IMG/VR virus record: IMGVR_UViG_3300040806_001117
Span: 1-32,071 of that record
Origin: a virus
Strand: one strand, 5' to 3'
Length of the DNA stretch: 32,071 bases
In this document: piece after piece, positions 6,589 through 24,150 of the stretch
How the letters are laid out: each line of letters starts with the position of its first letter
How positions within the stretch are numbered: position 1 is the first letter of the stretch
The notes under the pieces: model-generated
The model's input: only the letters and a program-made list of their open reading frames with translations
Database searches by the model: none
Told to the model about the DNA's origin: nothing
Position numbers and translations under genes: made by a program

Positions 6589-6615
6589 AATCAAATTCCT
6601 TTAAAAAAGTACGCA

Positions 6616-6622
6616 CTAAATA
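6616..6622 (+). promoter_or_regulatory. Probable late promoter box CTAAATA for gp26
   Basis: CACTAAATAG lies 35-41 bases before the gp26 start in a 68-base divergent intergenic region. It faces the minus-strand box at 6634-6640, with a palindromic GTATATATAC between them. The position suits a T4-type late promoter. Confidence 0.55.
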
Positions 6623-6633
6623 GGTATATATAC

Positions 6634-6640
6634 TATTTAT
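6634..6640 (-). promoter_or_regulatory. Probable late promoter box ATAAATA for the tape-measure/portal operon
   Basis: Minus-strand GATAAATAG precedes the tape-measure-like start by about 46 bases and matches seven bases of the T4 late box TATAAATA. Its expected start of transcription would be near 6628, inside the region also transcribed from the facing gp26 box. Confidence 0.55.
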
Positions 6641-6656
6641 CTATAGGAAAAAAGCA

Positions 6657-7496
6657 ATGGAACATCGAGAAAGTCCTCTTAAAAAATTTAAACGTCAACC
6701 TAAAATTTATATAAATTTGCCCAGTAAAGGCAAGTTTTACAAAGATGGCACACTTGATGATAACACATCAACTGATATTCCAGTGTTTAGTATGACAGCC
6801 AACGATGAAATACTTTATAGAACTCCTGATGCATTAATCAACGGAGAAGCAACTGCAAACAATATTAGAAGTTGTATTCCTAGTATTCTTGATCCTTGGA
6901 AAGTAGTTACTATAGATATTGATGCAATATTACTTGCAATTCGACTTTCAAGTTATGGAGAAAACTTGTCAGTTTCAAATGTTTGTAAAAAATGCGGAGA
7001 GCAAAACTCCTATGATATTCCTATTCAGAAATACATTGACTTTTACAATACTTTAGAATTCAAAGATAAAATTTTTGTCGAAGATGGATTAGTTGTAAAT
7101 GTTGAACCATTGACTTACAAACTATGGACAGAAATACAAAAACGTTTGATTGCATTACAACGTACTTTGCAAATTCAAATTCCAAAGATAACAGATGAAG
7201 ATCAAAGAAACAAAGAAACAGATAAAATATTAACTGAAATTTCTAATTTAAATGTACAAATTATTTTTGAACATATTAAATCAATCGAAGTAGATGGTGA
7301 AATTGAAACTAACCCTGCAGAAATTTTAGAATTTATTCAAGAAGCAGATCTAAGTTATTTTAAGAAAATTAAAAAACATATAGATACCCAATCTGAAGTT
7401 TGGAGAATACCTCCGGAAAAAGTACAATGCGGTTGTGGTGCTGAGAACTCCGTGATTATTAGAGTGGACCAATCAGATTTTTTCGGGCGAGGCTAG
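6657..7496 (+). CDS. 26: Baseplate hub assembly protein gp26
   Basis: A 279-residue protein of the T4 gp26 family (T4 gp26 is 208), which acts in assembly of the central baseplate hub. The N-terminal pattern is characteristic: INLPSKGKFY at 19-28, an acidic loop, PVFSMTANDEILYRTPDALING around 42-63, then SCIPSILDPW and an IDIDAILLAIRLSSYG block at about 86-101. A CKKC pair at 110-113 and a CGC at 258-260 could form a zinc ribbon. ATG with AGGA eight bases upstream. The stop overlaps the GTG start of the next gene by one base, so both are probably made together. It stands alone with its partner between two minus-strand blocks and has its own late-type box. Confidence 0.85.
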   Translation: MEHRESPLKKFKRQPKIYINLPSKGKFYKDGTLDDNTSTDIPVFSMTANDEILYRTPDALINGEATANNIRSCIPSILDPWKVVTIDIDAILLAIRLSSYGENLSVSNVCKKCGEQNSYDIPIQKYIDFYNTLEFKDKIFVEDGLVVNVEPLTYKLWTEIQKRLIALQRTLQIQIPKITDEDQRNKETDKILTEISNLNVQIIFEHIKSIEVDGEIETNPAEILEFIQEADLSYFKKIKKHIDTQSEVWRIPPEKVQCGCGAENSVIIRVDQSDFFGRG

Positions 7497-9757: not shown

Positions 9758-10192
9758 TTATTTTGCCTTGTTATGTTCTAGTAGTGCCTGGCGTAACTTG
9801 TCTGAACCACCAACTCTTACATTGATGATACCGTTGTAGTATTCGTCTGTTTCTAATACACGCCTATCAAATTGTTCTCGTGCTTCAATGTAACTCATTT
9901 CTGCTCTGCTTTTGCAAAAATAAAGTATTTCACGAGAAAAATTTTCTTCGCCTAGTTGTTGTACGTCTGCATTCAGCCTATCTGAGCTGCCCCAGTATTC
10001 ACGCCAATCGCTTTCTTTGTAGCCTCGACGTTTGTTCTTTTTGCCTTTAAGTGGTGGCTTGGTTGTTTTAAACTTTGCTAATTTTTTGCCTACGTACTTT
10101 TGATTTGTTTTGAGATTTGTTATTAGATATACAAAGCCTTCATACTCGTCATCAATAGATTCTACAGGTTTGCCTTGATATGTCCAACTCAT
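9758..10192 (-). CDS. GIY-YIG-like nuclease
   Basis: A 144-residue protein with an N-terminal pattern close to the GIY-YIG nuclease fold: GFVYLITN at 19-26 and KYVGKK at 32-37 stand for the two tyrosine motifs, here as F-V-Y and Y-V-G. A Lys/Arg-rich loop (about 40-60), DWREYWGSS (62-70, candidate catalytic Arg64), a helix with YIEAREQ (101-107, candidate Glu103) and NGIIN (Asn120) follow the order expected for the family. There is no extra DNA-binding domain as in I-TevI, so it may be a stand-alone endonuclease, homing or not. It ends the gp55-gp47-gp46 gene block. The ribosome site is weak and a second, out-of-frame ATG lies four bases upstream, so expression may be low. A candidate structured RNA follows at once. 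Confidence 0.7.
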   Translation of the reverse strand: MSWTYQGKPVESIDDEYEGFVYLITNLKTNQKYVGKKLAKFKTTKPPLKGKKNKRRGYKESDWREYWGSSDRLNADVQQLGEENFSREILYFCKSRAEMSYIEAREQFDRRVLETDEYYNGIINVRVGGSDKLRQALLEHNKAK

Positions 10193-13231: not shown

Positions 13232-13273
13232 TAGAAATACTCCACTTAGACTTTGATTATAAAAGAAAAAATC

Positions 13274-14128
13274 TTAATTGTCAAATTCTTTTTGCTTCTT
13301 TTCTTGATCTTCCATGAATCTTGCTAGTCCTGCTTCGTATTCGCCTTCCATTTGACGAGTGTAGCTAGGATCTAAGTCATTCATTTCAAGGATGTCGTCT
13401 CTGATTTTTTGATTGCGTTTTTCTAGGTTAATAACACGCACAAAGCTATTAGTAACAGCAGCGGTATAATAAGCAAAGGGGTTATTGGATTTAGATTCAT
13501 CAAATTGTAGTCCTATCTGTGAAAGTTGTAAGATTGCTTGACCTTTCATTTCGTCATTGTAGGTATAACCACGAACATTACCTCGTCTTGCATAACGATC
13601 AACCAACATTAACCACATACTTGCAAGTGTTCTAGTTGCAACTCCGCGATCTTTGTTGAAATGTCCGTTTTCCATGCCACCTTCCCAGTGACTTTTGCCT
13701 ACACATATTAAATTACCGTCGTCGTCAAATTTATAGTGTTGAAACGGAGGAAAATTTAATTTAACTTTATGGTCTGCCACTGTTTTTGGATTCTTTTTAC
13801 GTCCAGGTTCGTCAGGAATATGATCAAACGTCATAATTCTAAAAATAAGTTCTTCTGTTTTTAAACTTTCTGGGTCAATGGCAAAATTTGCTTGCTTTAC
13901 TTGCTTACCAGCTGCTTTTGCTTCGTCATATGCTGCCGTTGACAATGCTTTTGCTTTGTTTTCTTTAGCTTCTTGAATGGTTGTTTGGTTTATTTTATCT
14001 ATACTTGATAATATGATATTGTAATCTGCATACTCTTTGGAAACAAAACTACAAAAAGAATTTTTACTTTTGTGTATTTCTTTGAGCATGTCCTTATTAT
14101 TAAGATAATTTACTTTTTTTCTAGCCAT
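13274..14128 (-). CDS. 55: Late transcription sigma factor gp55
   Basis: Directs host RNA polymerase to late promoters of the NTAAATA type. From the ATG at 14128 (AGGAG eight bases upstream) it has 284 residues, against 185 for T4 gp55. Both ends of the T4 protein are matched: residues 5-20 (KVNYLNNKDMLKEIHK) parallel T4's N-terminal KYNYVNNKELLQAI, and 187-240 (GYTYNDEMKGQAILQL, then FDESKSNNPFAYYTAAVTNSF) parallels its sigma region-2 core. The extra length lies mostly between about 21 and 165, a Lys/Ala-rich and then aromatic segment. T4 gp55 ends in a hydrophobic clamp-binding tail; this one ends FMEDQEKKQKEFDN, without an evident equivalent. It is the first gene of the block with gp47 and gp46. 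Confidence 0.9.
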   Translation of the reverse strand: MARKKVNYLNNKDMLKEIHKSKNSFCSFVSKEYADYNIILSSIDKINQTTIQEAKENKAKALSTAAYDEAKAAGKQVKQANFAIDPESLKTEELIFRIMTFDHIPDEPGRKKNPKTVADHKVKLNFPPFQHYKFDDDGNLICVGKSHWEGGMENGHFNKDRGVATRTLASMWLMLVDRYARRGNVRGYTYNDEMKGQAILQLSQIGLQFDESKSNNPFAYYTAAVTNSFVRVINLEKRNQKIRDDILEMNDLDPSYTRQMEGEYEAGLARFMEDQEKKQKEFDN

Positions 14129-14144
14129 GGCTACTCCTATACTG

Positions 14145-14151
14145 TATTTAT
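14145..14151 (-). promoter_or_regulatory. Possible late box ATAAATA overlapping the gp55 -10
   Basis: Minus-strand AATAAATACAG shares two bases with the TATAAT at 14150-14155. If used, gp55 would also be made late under its own control; the leader would be very short. It may be no more than the A/T-rich edge of the sigma-70 promoter. Confidence 0.35.
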
Positions 14152-14178
14152 TATAATATACGCAGATAATTTTGTCAA
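14150..14178 (-). promoter_or_regulatory. Consensus sigma-70 promoter for gp55
   Basis: On the minus strand TTGACA (14178-14173) is followed after exactly 17 bases by TATAAT (14155-14150), a perfect match to the bacterial housekeeping consensus in both boxes. Transcription should start near 14143, about 15 bases before the gp55 ATG. This fits early expression of gp55, gp47 and gp46 by unmodified host polymerase. Confidence 0.85.
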
Positions 14179-14185
14179 CTAAATA
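14179..14185 (+). promoter_or_regulatory. Probable late promoter box CTAAATA for the gp48 operon
   Basis: ACTAAATAC lies 17-23 bases before the gp48 ATG, just upstream of its AAGGAG site. It directly abuts the TTGACA of the divergent gp55 promoter, so polymerase bound here would cover that -35 region. Confidence 0.6.
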
Positions 14186-14201
14186 CTGTAAGGAGATTTC
14201 T

Positions 14202-15077
14202 ATGGCAGACAACACTCAATATATCACACAAATTCTAGAAAGTATAGGGTCTGTGTACTCGGGTACAAGTGTATACAGTAACAACGGCGTATTAGGATCG
14301 GAAGACCCGTCATTGAAGACAAAAATGGCAATGTCAACTGGAGAATTTGCACAAAACCCTAATTTAGTAGGATCATTGATTCGCCGTAGATCGTTGCCAC
14401 CTGGTGCTCAGCCTGCTCCGGTAAAGATAACAAGTGCTACTTTTAGTTCATCGTCTTACAACAATACAACTGAAAATTGGAGAGTGCGTTTAAGTTTGCC
14501 AGCTTCTAGTACATTTAGGACTAGTCCGTTGTTAAAGCCGTTAGTTGATACAGACAATAGCATGATATGGCCTACAACTCCTAATATAACACTAAGTCAT
14601 AGTGCAAGTTACAATATGTTAAGTTTATTGCATACAAATTATGCATTTCCGACTTATAAACAATCTCAAGCAGATCCTATTACTGTTTCGGGCTCGTTTC
14701 CTGTTCAAAGTGTGTCTGATGGCCAATATTGGGTTGCAGCGATACATTATTTGCGTAGTATAAGCAAAATGCACTATGGAGAAACTAGTGATAAAGGATC
14801 TCCACCGCCAATGGTAAAGTTAAATGGATATGGTGACTTTGTTTTTAATAATGTTCCTTGTGTTGTTACCAACTTTACTGTTGATTTATCAAACGGTGTT
14901 GATTATATTAGAGTTCCTTTATTAGGAGAATCAGGAAACACAGAAGAATTTACCTATGTTCCTACTGATAGTACCATAAGCGTAACACTTCAACCGATAT
15001 ACAGCAGAGGAAAAGTTAGCGAATTTAGCTTTGACGACTTTGTTAAAGGTAATTTAAGAGATGAAGGATTTATTTAA
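14202..15077 (+). CDS. 48: Baseplate tail-tube cap gp48
   Basis: A 291-residue protein, shorter than T4 gp48 (364), that would form the ring joining the baseplate hub to the tail tube. The recognisable part is C-terminal: WVAAIHYLRSISKMHYGE around 175-192 matches the helix and YFSYGETG turn of gp48, followed by PPMVKLNGYGDFVFNNVPC and a final strand pattern (PTDSTISVTLQPIYSRGKVS) like the LPSTFTLEITMREI end of T4 gp48. The related gp54 (tube initiator) is the main alternative, but gp48 fits better and gp53 follows directly, as expected. The frame extends 10 codons upstream, but the ATG at 14202 has a good AAGGAG and sits after the late box. The stop overlaps the gp53 start (TAATG). Confidence 0.8.
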   Translation: MADNTQYITQILESIGSVYSGTSVYSNNGVLGSEDPSLKTKMAMSTGEFAQNPNLVGSLIRRRSLPPGAQPAPVKITSATFSSSSYNNTTENWRVRLSLPASSTFRTSPLLKPLVDTDNSMIWPTTPNITLSHSASYNMLSLLHTNYAFPTYKQSQADPITVSGSFPVQSVSDGQYWVAAIHYLRSISKMHYGETSDKGSPPPMVKLNGYGDFVFNNVPCVVTNFTVDLSNGVDYIRVPLLGESGNTEEFTYVPTDSTISVTLQPIYSRGKVSEFSFDDFVKGNLRDEGFI

Positions 15078-20192: not shown

Positions 20193-20627
20193 ATGGCAGA
20201 ACAACAACTATATAAAAATATAACCATAGACACACCAACAGTAGATAGTCCTGTACGCTCAAAGGCATACAGAGGATTGAGCACGGTTAATCCTTCTGTT
20301 AAAAACTTTAAATTATACGATTTAGCATTAATTAAACAGGACATTGTTAACCATTTTCATATACGTCAAGGTGAAAAACTTAGCGATCCTACATTTGGTA
20401 CAATAATTTGGGATATTTTATATGAGCCGTTGACCAGTGAAATTAAAGAAGCAATTATTAAAAATGTTACCACTATTGTAAACTATGACCCTCGTGTAAA
20501 CGTACAAAAAGTTGAAGTTTCTGAGTACGAAAGTGGCATAGAAATTAAGTGTCAATTGTCCTATTTGCCTTATAATATTAGCGAAACTGTGCAGCTAAAA
20601 TTTGACCAAGCAAACGGTCTACTTTAA
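20193..20627 (+). CDS. 25: Baseplate wedge protein gp25
   Basis: A 144-residue protein, close to T4 gp25 (132), member of the gp25/TssE family that forms the inner wedge and starts the sheath. The family signature is seen in order: LYDLALIKQDIVNHFHIRQG followed by EKLSDPTFGT, where the conserved Gly-Glu and Phe-Gly lie, then LYEPLTSEIKEAI and ENYDPRV-like (here NYDPRVNVQKVEV). The final strand pair ISETVQLKFD is typical. No clear Shine-Dalgarno sequence precedes its ATG; a GTAAATACAGT stretch does. gp6 follows after 52 bases, the usual partner order. Confidence 0.95.
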   Translation: MAEQQLYKNITIDTPTVDSPVRSKAYRGLSTVNPSVKNFKLYDLALIKQDIVNHFHIRQGEKLSDPTFGTIIWDILYEPLTSEIKEAIIKNVTTIVNYDPRVNVQKVEVSEYESGIEIKCQLSYLPYNISETVQLKFDQANGLL

Positions 20628-20649
20628 TGTACGCACTTTTTGAATCCAG

Positions 20650-20656
20650 ATAAATA
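20650..20656 (+). promoter_or_regulatory. Probable late promoter box ATAAATA for gp6
   Basis: AGATAAATATC lies 24-30 bases before the gp6 ATG and upstream of its AAGGAA site, in the 52-base gap after gp25. Seven bases match the late consensus. Confidence 0.55.
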
Positions 20657-20679: not shown

Positions 20680-23600
20680 ATGTCAAGCACTGAGCGTCAA
20701 AACAGACTTCTTCTGGCAGAAGATTGGAAAAGAATTTATCAAAGTTTCAAGTATGCAGACTTTGAAAGTTATGACTTCGACAACCTACGTCGAGTAATGA
20801 TTAATTATATACGTCAAAATTATCCTGAGGATTTCAACGATTATATTGAAAGCTCAGAATATCTTGCACTTATCGATCTTATTGCATTTTTAGGTCAAAA
20901 CCTTGCTTTCCGTACTGACCTAAATGCTCGTGAAAACTATATCGAAACTGCTGACCGTAGAGAAAGTGTTCTTAGACTAGCACGTTTAATCAGTTACAAT
21001 CCTAAAAGAAACCAAGCAGCAAACGGTCTTTTAAAAATTGAAAGTGTTAGCACTACAGAAGATGTGTTTGATAGTAATGGTGTTAATTTAAGTGGACAAA
21101 CAGTTTTATGGAACGATGGTTCAAATGCTGATTGGTATGAGCAATTTATTAAAATTATAAATGCTGCATTGCCAACAACTAATACATTTGGTCGTCCAGT
21201 TAAAAAAGAAACTATTAATAGTGTGCTAACTGAGCAATATAGATTTAATGCAAATAGTACAAAAATACCGTTATACAGTTTTACAAAAAATATTGATAGT
21301 AACAGTGTTAGATTTGAAATTACAAGTACTAATTTTGAAAATAATACAATATATGAAGAAGAGCCGTTTCCAGGAAATAAACTAGCGTTCTTGTACAGAG
21401 ATGATGGGCAAGGTGCTGGATCGAATAACAGTGGATTTTTCTGTCATTTCCGCCAAGGCTCTATGCAAAACAACATATTTGCAATCAACAACCCGACTCC
21501 AAATACAGTAGTAAATGTTGATACTACAAAAATTAATAATAGCGATGTATGGTTATATAAACTTGATAGTAACAATTTAGAAAGTGAGTTGTGGACTAAG
21601 GTTGATAGCATTGAAGGCAACAATATCATTTACAACAGCATTAACAAAAACATTAGAACTATTTACAGTGTTCTTAGCCGCGTAGATGATAAAATTAGCC
21701 TAATTTTCAGTGATGGCGTTTTTGGTGAATTGCCAAAAGGTTCATATAAACTTTACTATAGAACCAGTCTTAACAAGCAATTAAAAATACTACCAAGTGA
21801 TTTAACAAATATCAACCTGCAAATTCCTTACATTAGTAAAGCAGGTAGAGAAGAAACACTTAACTTGTATTTAGAATTAAAATACACTGTAACAAACGGT
21901 ACAACTAGCGAAGAAACAGCAAGCATTAAAGCAAATGCTCCTAGTACTTACTATACACAAAACCGTTTAATTACAGGTGAAGATTATAACGTTGGTATTT
22001 CGAGTGTAAGTCAAGAAATTATTAAAACAAAAGCAGTTAACAGAACTAGCAGTGGTATTAGTAGATATTTTGATTTACGTGATGCATCAGGAAAATACAC
22101 AAACACATTAATGTTTGGAAACGACGGTGTTATCTACAAAGAAACATTAAATGATTATACTGGATTTGAATTCACAACAAGAACTGACATTGAAGCAGTT
22201 ATAAGAAATCAAGTTGAACCTATATTAAAAACTGATAAAATTAAAAATTATTACTTTAGAAACTTCCCTAGAACAGAAGCAGTTTCTGAGTTAAACTTGA
22301 CTTGGGTAAATGTTACTACAGATACAAATAGAAGCACAGGTTATTTTGTAGATGAAAACAATTTTAAAGCAAGTGTAAGTTCTTATACACAGAGTATTTT
22401 GCGTTTTATTGAACCAAATGCACTATTAAAATTTGAAGCACCTACAGGCTACTTTTTTAGAGGAAATAGAATTGTTGCAGGAACGCCAACTGAAGTTGGT
22501 GACTTAACTTATCGTTGGGTTAAAGTAATAAGCATTGTTGAAAACGGAACAGTTGTTGATAATGATACAGGATTAGGTCCAATTGTATTCAACGATATTA
22601 TTCCGTCTACAGATTTAGTTAAAGCAACTCTTAAACAAATTATTCCTGTATTAGCAACAAGTATTTCTACTGATGTAACTCGTCAAGTAGTAGATCAGAT
22701 ATTTGCTTACAAAACTTTTGGTTTACGTTACGATACAGAAACAAGAACTTGGAGAGTTATTACAAACACAAACTTGAATTCAATATCTCCATTTAGTTTA
22801 GGTAAAACAGGTGATAACACAAATCAGCAACTTGATGCTAGTTGGTTATTATTGTTTGAAACAGATGGCGAAAAATACACAGTTACATCTAGAGGATCAA
22901 GATACATTTACGAAAGTGAAGAGCGTATAAGATTTTACTTTGATGGCAATAACAAAATCTATGACAGTAAAACAGGAAAAGTTATCAAAGATAAAATTAC
23001 TCTTTTGAGTAACAACAATCAACCTGATAGTTTAAGTAGTTTTACTAATAGTTTTGTATGGGAAATTAAAAACGAGTTCAAAAACAGTGCAGGATATGTT
23101 GATAGTCAAAAAGTAGAAATTGGTTTTTACGACAGCGACAACGATGGTGTTATTGACGATCCTGATATTTTTGATCATTTTGTTGCTCCAACAGTAAATC
23201 CGTTAACCAAATATATTTTCCAAAAGAAAGCAACAATAAACAAGACAGAAACATACAACTATGTTGATGCTGTTGCAGAAAATATAACAGTGGTTAGAAG
23301 TGAAGCATCGATTGGTGCATTTAGTCAATATGATAATGGTGCTGTTTTTTATCTTGTAGAAAAAGATATTTTTAAAGTATTAAACACTGCAACTAATACG
23401 CTGGCACAAACAGCCAATTACCAAGCGTTTGTTGGGCGTAGCGGAATTAAATTTGAATATTTACATGCTGCTGATGATACAATGAGAATTGATCCAAGTA
23501 GTAGCAATATCATGGATGTATATCTGTTAACAAGAACATACGATAATGATTATAGAGATTGGATTTCTGGTAAAACAACAACTAAACCTCTTCCTCCTAG

Positions 23601-24150
23601 CAGCGATAATTTATTCCTTAACTACGGTCAAGAAGTTAATAAAATTAAAAGTGTTAGTGACGAAGTAATTTATCATCCAGTAAAATACAAACCACTTTTT
23701 GGTAGCAATGCAAGTGTTGATTTACAAGCAGAAATTAAAATTGTAAAAAATATTGAAAAAATTGTAAACGACAACGAAGTAAAAGCAAAAACAATTGATG
23801 CAATAAATGAATTTTTTGCATTAGAAAATTGGGACTTTGGCGAAACGTTCTATTTTACAGAACTTTCAACATATATTATGAATAAACTTTCGCCAGATGT
23901 TGTGAGTGTTGTTCTTGTTCCAGTTCAAGAAACACAGAGCTTTGGAAGTCTTTATGAAATAAAATCAGAAAGTGACGAAATCTTTATTAGTACAGCAACA
24001 GTTGACGATATCAAAATTATTGATGCAATCACAGCAAGCAGATTACAAGCATCTGGTGCAGTAATTTCAAGTAGCACTACTGCAAATTCAGGTGTACAAA
24101 GTAACACAGCCTCAAGCACATATATTATTACCGGCGGAGATAATGCATAA
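20680..24150 (+). CDS. 6: Baseplate wedge protein gp6, enlarged
   Basis: Wedge protein that in T4 links neighbouring wedges into a continuous ring. The N-terminal ~120 residues are clearly of the family: WKRIYQSFKYADFESYDFDN, a helix IDLIAFLGQNLAFRTDLNAREN and the RRESVLRLARLISYNPKRNQ block. J-like strands follow (INLQIPYISKAGREETLNLY near 380, NRLITGEDYNVGISS near 425-440, a typical gp6/gpJ site). At 1156 residues it is much longer than T4 gp6 (660). The extra part lies mostly after about residue 570 and includes a perfect EF-hand-type loop DSDNDGVIDDPD at 818-829, suggesting bound calcium. The C-terminus returns to a family-like pattern (IDAINEFFALENWDFGETFY). The stop overlaps the next start (TAATG). 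Confidence 0.92.
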   Translation: MSSTERQNRLLLAEDWKRIYQSFKYADFESYDFDNLRRVMINYIRQNYPEDFNDYIESSEYLALIDLIAFLGQNLAFRTDLNARENYIETADRRESVLRLARLISYNPKRNQAANGLLKIESVSTTEDVFDSNGVNLSGQTVLWNDGSNADWYEQFIKIINAALPTTNTFGRPVKKETINSVLTEQYRFNANSTKIPLYSFTKNIDSNSVRFEITSTNFENNTIYEEEPFPGNKLAFLYRDDGQGAGSNNSGFFCHFRQGSMQNNIFAINNPTPNTVVNVDTTKINNSDVWLYKLDSNNLESELWTKVDSIEGNNIIYNSINKNIRTIYSVLSRVDDKISLIFSDGVFGELPKGSYKLYYRTSLNKQLKILPSDLTNINLQIPYISKAGREETLNLYLELKYTVTNGTTSEETASIKANAPSTYYTQNRLITGEDYNVGISSVSQEIIKTKAVNRTSSGISRYFDLRDASGKYTNTLMFGNDGVIYKETLNDYTGFEFTTRTDIEAVIRNQVEPILKTDKIKNYYFRNFPRTEAVSELNLTWVNVTTDTNRSTGYFVDENNFKASVSSYTQSILRFIEPNALLKFEAPTGYFFRGNRIVAGTPTEVGDLTYRWVKVISIVENGTVVDNDTGLGPIVFNDIIPSTDLVKATLKQIIPVLATSISTDVTRQVVDQIFAYKTFGLRYDTETRTWRVITNTNLNSISPFSLGKTGDNTNQQLDASWLLLFETDGEKYTVTSRGSRYIYESEERIRFYFDGNNKIYDSKTGKVIKDKITLLSNNNQPDSLSSFTNSFVWEIKNEFKNSAGYVDSQKVEIGFYDSDNDGVIDDPDIFDHFVAPTVNPLTKYIFQKKATINKTETYNYVDAVAENITVVRSEASIGAFSQYDNGAVFYLVEKDIFKVLNTATNTLAQTANYQAFVGRSGIKFEYLHAADDTMRIDPSSSNIMDVYLLTRTYDNDYRDWISGKTTTKPLPPSSDNLFLNYGQEVNKIKSVSDEVIYHPVKYKPLFGSNASVDLQAEIKIVKNIEKIVNDNEVKAKTIDAINEFFALENWDFGETFYFTELSTYIMNKLSPDVVSVVLVPVQETQSFGSLYEIKSESDEIFISTATVDDIKIIDAITASRLQASGAVISSSTTANSGVQSNTASSTYIITGGDNA
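23131..23166 (+). other. EF-hand-like calcium-binding loop coded within gp6
   Basis: The twelve residues DSDNDGVIDDPD have Asp at 1, 3 and 5, Gly at 6, Ile at 8 and Asp at 12, the full EF-hand loop consensus. They are flanked by VEIGFY and IFDHFV, which are not strong helices, so a dockerin-like or stand-alone calcium loop is more likely than a paired EF hand. Confidence 0.75.

Follow-up and report, generated by a model that had tools for sequence, protein, structure and literature searches.

A predicted early promoter for the late sigma factor gene gp55 and a predicted divergent late baseplate promoter share the same DNA in a group of giant T4-like phages

The gene of a T4-type late sigma factor (gp55) and an operon of baseplate-type genes diverge from a short intergenic region in the DNA analysed here (IMG/VR record IMGVR_UViG_3300040806_001117; the whole stretch of 32,071 nucleotides is called the window). 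How can a promoter for the sigma factor and a late promoter that would use this sigma factor be accommodated in a few dozen bases? A first-pass annotation, made from the sequence letters, had placed a host-type promoter for gp55 next to a late box of the divergent operon, and it had proposed that polymerase at the late box blocks the early promoter.

The proteins of the window resemble those of jumbo T4-like phages. Its gp55 is approximately 46% identical to the proteins of Pseudomonas phage PA5oct and Paride, 41% to that of Atu_ph07, and 37% to those of RaK2, 121Q, and GAP32. The phage encodes a gp55-family sigma factor, as indicated by a profile match to T4 gp55 (7d7c_F, E 1e-8) and by the confident structure model (pLDDT 89), for which the same chain is the top Foldseek match (E 2e-3, probability 1.00). 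The parts matched by the profile to T4 gp55 (7d7c/7d7d) are the N-terminal NNK helix and the sigma-2 region. Between these parts, gp55 of the jumbo phages contains roughly 120 residues that are absent from T4 gp55. No known fold was found for this extra region, and the sigma-2 part alone matches solved structures. For the product of the first divergent gene, named gp48 by the first-pass annotation, solved structures gave no sequence match that would identify it as T4 gp48; its predicted fold, a low-confidence model, matches baseplate or tail-tube initiator proteins (best E 9e-6). We refer to it as the gp48-like gene. Elsewhere in the window (9758-10192), a 144-aa ORF matches phrog_447, which carries the label NAD synthetase, as well as several families of homing endonucleases.

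The features of the gp55/gp48 junction are as follows.

13274..14128, minus strand: gp55, T4-type late sigma factor, 284 aa (phrog_12791, E 1.4e-75; phrog_234), ATG at 14128
14134..14137, minus strand: Shine-Dalgarno sequence GGAG of gp55, from sequence
14145..14151, minus strand: ATAAATA, a late-like box that overlaps the -10 of the early promoter
14150..14155, minus strand: gp55 -10 hexamer TATAAT (ATTATA on the plus strand), 17 nt from the -35
14152..14168, plus strand: putative late-promoter upstream element TATAATATACGCAGATA, situated between the early hexamers and partly covering them
14173..14178, minus strand: gp55 -35 hexamer TTGACA (TGTCAA on the plus strand)
14179..14185, plus strand: late box CTAAATA of the gp48-like gene and baseplate operon, predicted start near 14191
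14190..14195, plus strand: Shine-Dalgarno sequence AAGGAG of the gp48-like gene, from sequence
14202..15077, plus strand: gp48-like gene, which opens the divergent operon and encodes a virion structural protein (phrog_12050), ATG at 14202

A base-by-base check of the coordinates located the perfect TTGACA-17-TATAAT upstream of gp55 at 14178..14150 on the minus strand, exactly as the first-pass annotation had read it. The ATG lies 21 nt past the -10, and the predicted start is near 14143. The first base of CTAAATA (14179) adjoins the TTGACA, again as annotated, and the box is followed by a Shine-Dalgarno sequence and an ATG. The annotated assignment of a host-type promoter to the late sigma gene and a T4-type late box to the divergent baseplate operon is thus supported. 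The extent of the overlap had been understated, because the two boxes not only abut: the late upstream element fills the gp55 spacer and overlaps its -10, and therefore the predicted late (14152-14185) and early (14150-14178) promoters are superimposed. The segment 14150-14185 consists of two complete predicted promoters of different classes on opposite strands, which are antiparallel in the same DNA and not merely adjacent. Their predicted starts (14143 and 14191) are approximately 48 bp apart, back to back. In first-order Markov simulations, 0.047 perfect -35/17/-10 arrangements were expected per window, and two were observed. The stronger evidence that the predicted promoter pair is real is its conservation.

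At least 80 loci of gp55 relatives were fetched from IMG/VR, of which 79 have readable upstream DNA. Among these listed matches, the 12-mer TATTTAGTTGAC is present at the gp55/gp48 junction, with exact abutment of the two boxes, in 76 of 79; the exceptions are L033, L073, and L081. Conservation was measured in 49 representatives differing pairwise at more than 20% of fourfold sites. Because an exact match to the 12-mer was the criterion for picking them, the first 12 columns of the 36-bp block are invariant by construction, while the other 24 are not; TTGAC, found in 49/49, is contained in the selecting 12-mer. The mean pairwise identity of the block is 0.829, that of the gp55 fourfold sites is 0.451 (saturation would be 0.361), and that of the 12-nt flanks on either side is 0.45 and 0.44. 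The gp55 -10 is conserved in the relatives as TATNAT, and the distance from the late box to the gp48-like start codon is mostly 15-24 nt. In the alignments, the overlap was kept while nearby DNA changed almost completely.

The reading of CTAAATA as a late box stands for the gp48 operon, but this heptamer is not the standard of the window's clade; it matches the consensus of phage Aeh1 (PMC1524935). In the clade, ATAAATA precedes a Shine-Dalgarno sequence and ATG in 79 of 188 copies (42%, versus approximately 6% for permutations). The corresponding count for CTAAATA is 19 of 198 copies, and roughly half of the 19 are the gp48 promoter. The usual late box of the clade, as judged from these counts, is ATAAATA, and CTAAATA seldom serves as a late box away from the gp48 locus; we rejected CTAAATA as the general late box. 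Isolated phages also have ATAAATA at the place equivalent to the CTAAATA of the window.

The upstream element is shared with a second baseplate promoter of the window.

20623..20639, plus strand: upstream element TTTAATGTACGCACTTT of the gp6-like late promoter
20650..20656, plus strand: ATAAATA, late box of the gene for a gp6-like baseplate wedge protein (phrog_10646, ORF 20680-24150)

We collected the gp6-like late promoters of 80 further loci (67 distinct). Between -27 and -11 relative to the box they have a common element that reads roughly WWTWAWRTACGYASWT, and the gp48 promoters agree with it column by column. When a weight matrix was built from the gp6 promoters alone and applied to 50 distinct gp48 promoters, 49 had their best match at that exact offset. 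The matrix peaks one or two bases closer to the box in PA5oct-like relatives (24/40), and it gives no peak in RaK2-like phages. In the window, the element is centred around TACGCA, is near-palindromic, and lies 10 nt before the late box. T4 late promoters have no upstream or -35 element (PMC2988020), and the gp48 and gp6 promoters depart from them in this respect. The element was not found in the other late-promoter families of the same genomes, the tail-sheath-like one among them; the idea that all late promoters carry it was therefore discarded. A genome-wide regulon of the palindrome was likewise not adopted, as only weak enrichment was observed.

We consider the best explanation of this anatomy to be that the early promoter of gp55 and the late baseplate promoter, superimposed on opposite strands, are mutually exclusive and limit the amount of gp55 (probability roughly two in three). 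A host sigma-70 type promoter would produce gp55 before late transcription begins, and the gp55-dependent late promoter with its upstream element would then drive the baseplate operon. Given the usual extent of polymerase footprints, two complexes that start 48 bp apart, back to back, would not be able to coexist. From such footprints and the distance between the predicted starts, we infer that a polymerase on one promoter would cover the recognition sequence of the other, and simultaneous use of both is probably impossible. A host-type polymerase on the gp55 promoter would keep the late operon shut; conversely, gp55 polymerase on the late promoter, with any sliding clamp behind it, would cover the -35, spacer, and -10 of gp55, and this occupancy would limit further gp55 synthesis. 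In T4, the footprint of the activated late complex extends 13 bp further upstream than that of the basal complex (PMC2988020); a similar extension here would fall on the early promoter. Mutual exclusion with self-limitation of gp55 is the most likely consequence of the predicted geometry. Some points speak against this explanation. A global shut-off of early sigma-70 transcription may occur late in infection, which would make local exclusion unnecessary; CTAAATA departs from the ATAAATA of the clade and could be weak; and related lineages with spacings of 2-6 nt, or about 35 nt or more, suggest that zero spacing is not needed generally.

The main rival is that a dimeric regulator binds the near-palindromic element (consensus TTAASTRCGYASTTAA) as an operator, so that a phage DNA-binding protein, and not polymerase exclusion, runs the switch. 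Such a protein would repress gp55 from between the -35 and -10, and activate or repress the gp48 and gp6 operons. We regard this as possible but not favoured. Its twofold symmetry suits an operator, as do the eight sites found at no more than one mismatch, versus at most four for each of 24 permuted palindromes. The element also occurs near the divergent pair at 6594/6657, and in L073 late boxes lie 14 nt from it on either side. However, the gp48 and gp6 promoters place it at a constant distance from the late box (49/50), as would be expected of a promoter element, and it is missing from most other late promoters.

Natural variants bear on whether the overlap is required. In a quick maximum-likelihood tree, L073 and L081 form one derived branch nested inside the abutting clade. 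They have kept the canonical ATAAATA and the upstream element ahead of the gp48-like gene. In both, the original -35 and -10 of gp55 have decayed, and a host-type promoter for this gene is found approximately 55 nt farther off. This pattern indicates that the spacer sequence and the box belong to the late promoter. It also suggests that C instead of A at the first box position accompanies an adjacent -35. L033 has a canonical box with a one-base overlap. In L073, the region upstream of gp55 resembles a symmetrical divergent late promoter: boxes flank the element at 14 nt on both sides, ATAAATA toward gp48 and CTAAATA toward gp55.

The isolates have a common gene order and differ in spacing. 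The box and the -35 are 2-6 nt apart in RaK2, 121Q, GAP32, BF, and Munch and 22 nt apart in PA5oct, and the promoters are far apart in Phosso. Atu_ph07 retains TATTTAGTTGAC and has no clear -10. In the PA5oct-like metagenomic relatives (L150-L195), the late box is almost constantly approximately 35 nt from the gp55 -35, and a similar but shifted upstream element, ATAAAAGTASCAGTTTAT, is present. IMG/VR searches with gp55 of Vibrio 2.275.O returned no relatives, and those with gp55 of Atu_ph07 returned that phage alone. In the alignment check that the first-pass annotation had proposed, the abutting boxes are strictly retained in the window's clade and are spaced differently in related lineages, and the far-apart arrangement that had been named as evidence against the switch occurs in part. 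Since the PA5oct-like relatives (mostly 35 nt), L073/L081 (approximately 55 nt), and Phosso separate the promoters, zero spacing is a clade-specific state and not a requirement of the gene pair. The separated lineage and the isolates with spacings of 2-6 nt and approximately 22 nt make the effect of the overlap directly testable.

The overlap could also reflect simple genome compaction, in which a short intergenic space forces the two promoters to share DNA, and a global switch-off of early transcription would leave exclusion without regulatory effect. Short intergenic regions throughout and the varying spacing among lineages are in line with this explanation, which we consider somewhat unlikely. 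Against it, the arrangement is kept at near-saturating divergence, with one clear separation event in the clade, although the constraint seen there acts on each element and not on the conflict itself.

If mutual exclusion is correct, these giant T4-like phages, a large group that has received little study, would possess a compact early-to-late switch within a few dozen bases. The gp48 and gp6 promoters also show that a second recognition element can occur in T4-type late promoters. It is conceivable, but unlikely, that the extra residues of gp55 read the upstream element directly, which lies inside the early promoter of gp55 itself. In that case, the late promoters would consist of two elements, in contrast to T4, and gp55 polymerase, by binding, would at the same time repress gp55.

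The system resembles T4 late transcription (gp55/gp33/gp45) in its gp55-family sigma factor, a TAAATA-type box approximately 12 nt before the start, and structural genes downstream. It differs from T4 in the common upstream element of two baseplate promoters and in the longer gp55. The late consensus of Aeh1, derived in silico, is CTAAATA at -12 throughout the genome (PMC1524935). The gp48 box of the window has the same sequence; here, in contrast, this form is special to the promoter overlapped by an early -35, and the rest are mostly ATAAATA. The jumbo phages CBB and GAP32 likewise have RpoD-like promoters and an ATAAATA late motif, and in CBB, gp55 closely follows a promoter that has a classic -10 (PMC5259590). 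However, the gp55 promoter there belongs to a TGAAACG class, overlap with a late promoter was not reported, and the gp45 clamp and gp33 were reported as undetected in CBB (PMC5259590). In our literature search, which is not proof of novelty, we found no description of the promoter superposition or of an upstream late element. At back-to-back overlapping divergent promoters in bacteria and phages, two polymerases compete for one stretch of DNA. The present case differs in that one of the promoters drives the gene for the sigma factor that would use the other, and the two promoters are of early and late classes.

The first-pass annotation had also left room for late synthesis of gp55, which would create positive feedback, from the box over its own -10. 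This box, a good ATAAATA, is confirmed in the window together with Shine-Dalgarno spacing, and occurs in 13 of the 49 representatives. Its absence in the other 36 does not allow late synthesis as a general feature, and the gp55 strand of the window has no in-register upstream element; we consider this route quite improbable.

The second perfect host-type promoter of the window served as an internal control.

13256..13284, minus strand: TTGACA-17-TATAAT ahead of gp47 (SbcD-like, TTG start 13231)

In the relatives, its hexamers are kept (identity 0.83) without TATTTAG, and the identity of its 17-nt spacer is 0.37, versus 0.68 for the gp55 promoter. The 12-mer is present as a single copy, always at the junction, in 18 of 20 contigs (one contig has one extra copy), and it is therefore not a general extension of early promoters. 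TATTTAG stands immediately before the -35 in almost every member, and one could read it as an extension of the early promoter instead of a late box. This reading is very improbable and largely refuted: TATTTAG is absent from the gp47 and other host-type promoters of the same genomes, the isolates carry ATAAATA at the equivalent place, and L073/L081 keep a canonical late box without an adjacent -35.

A second divergent pair of baseplate-type genes is located at 6594-6657 of the window, with the boxes CTAAATA (6616-6622, plus strand) and ATAAATA (6634-6640, minus strand). A TACGCA element is directly beside the CTAAATA box, and the orthologous regions of other contigs keep TGCGCA or TACGCA at varying spacing.
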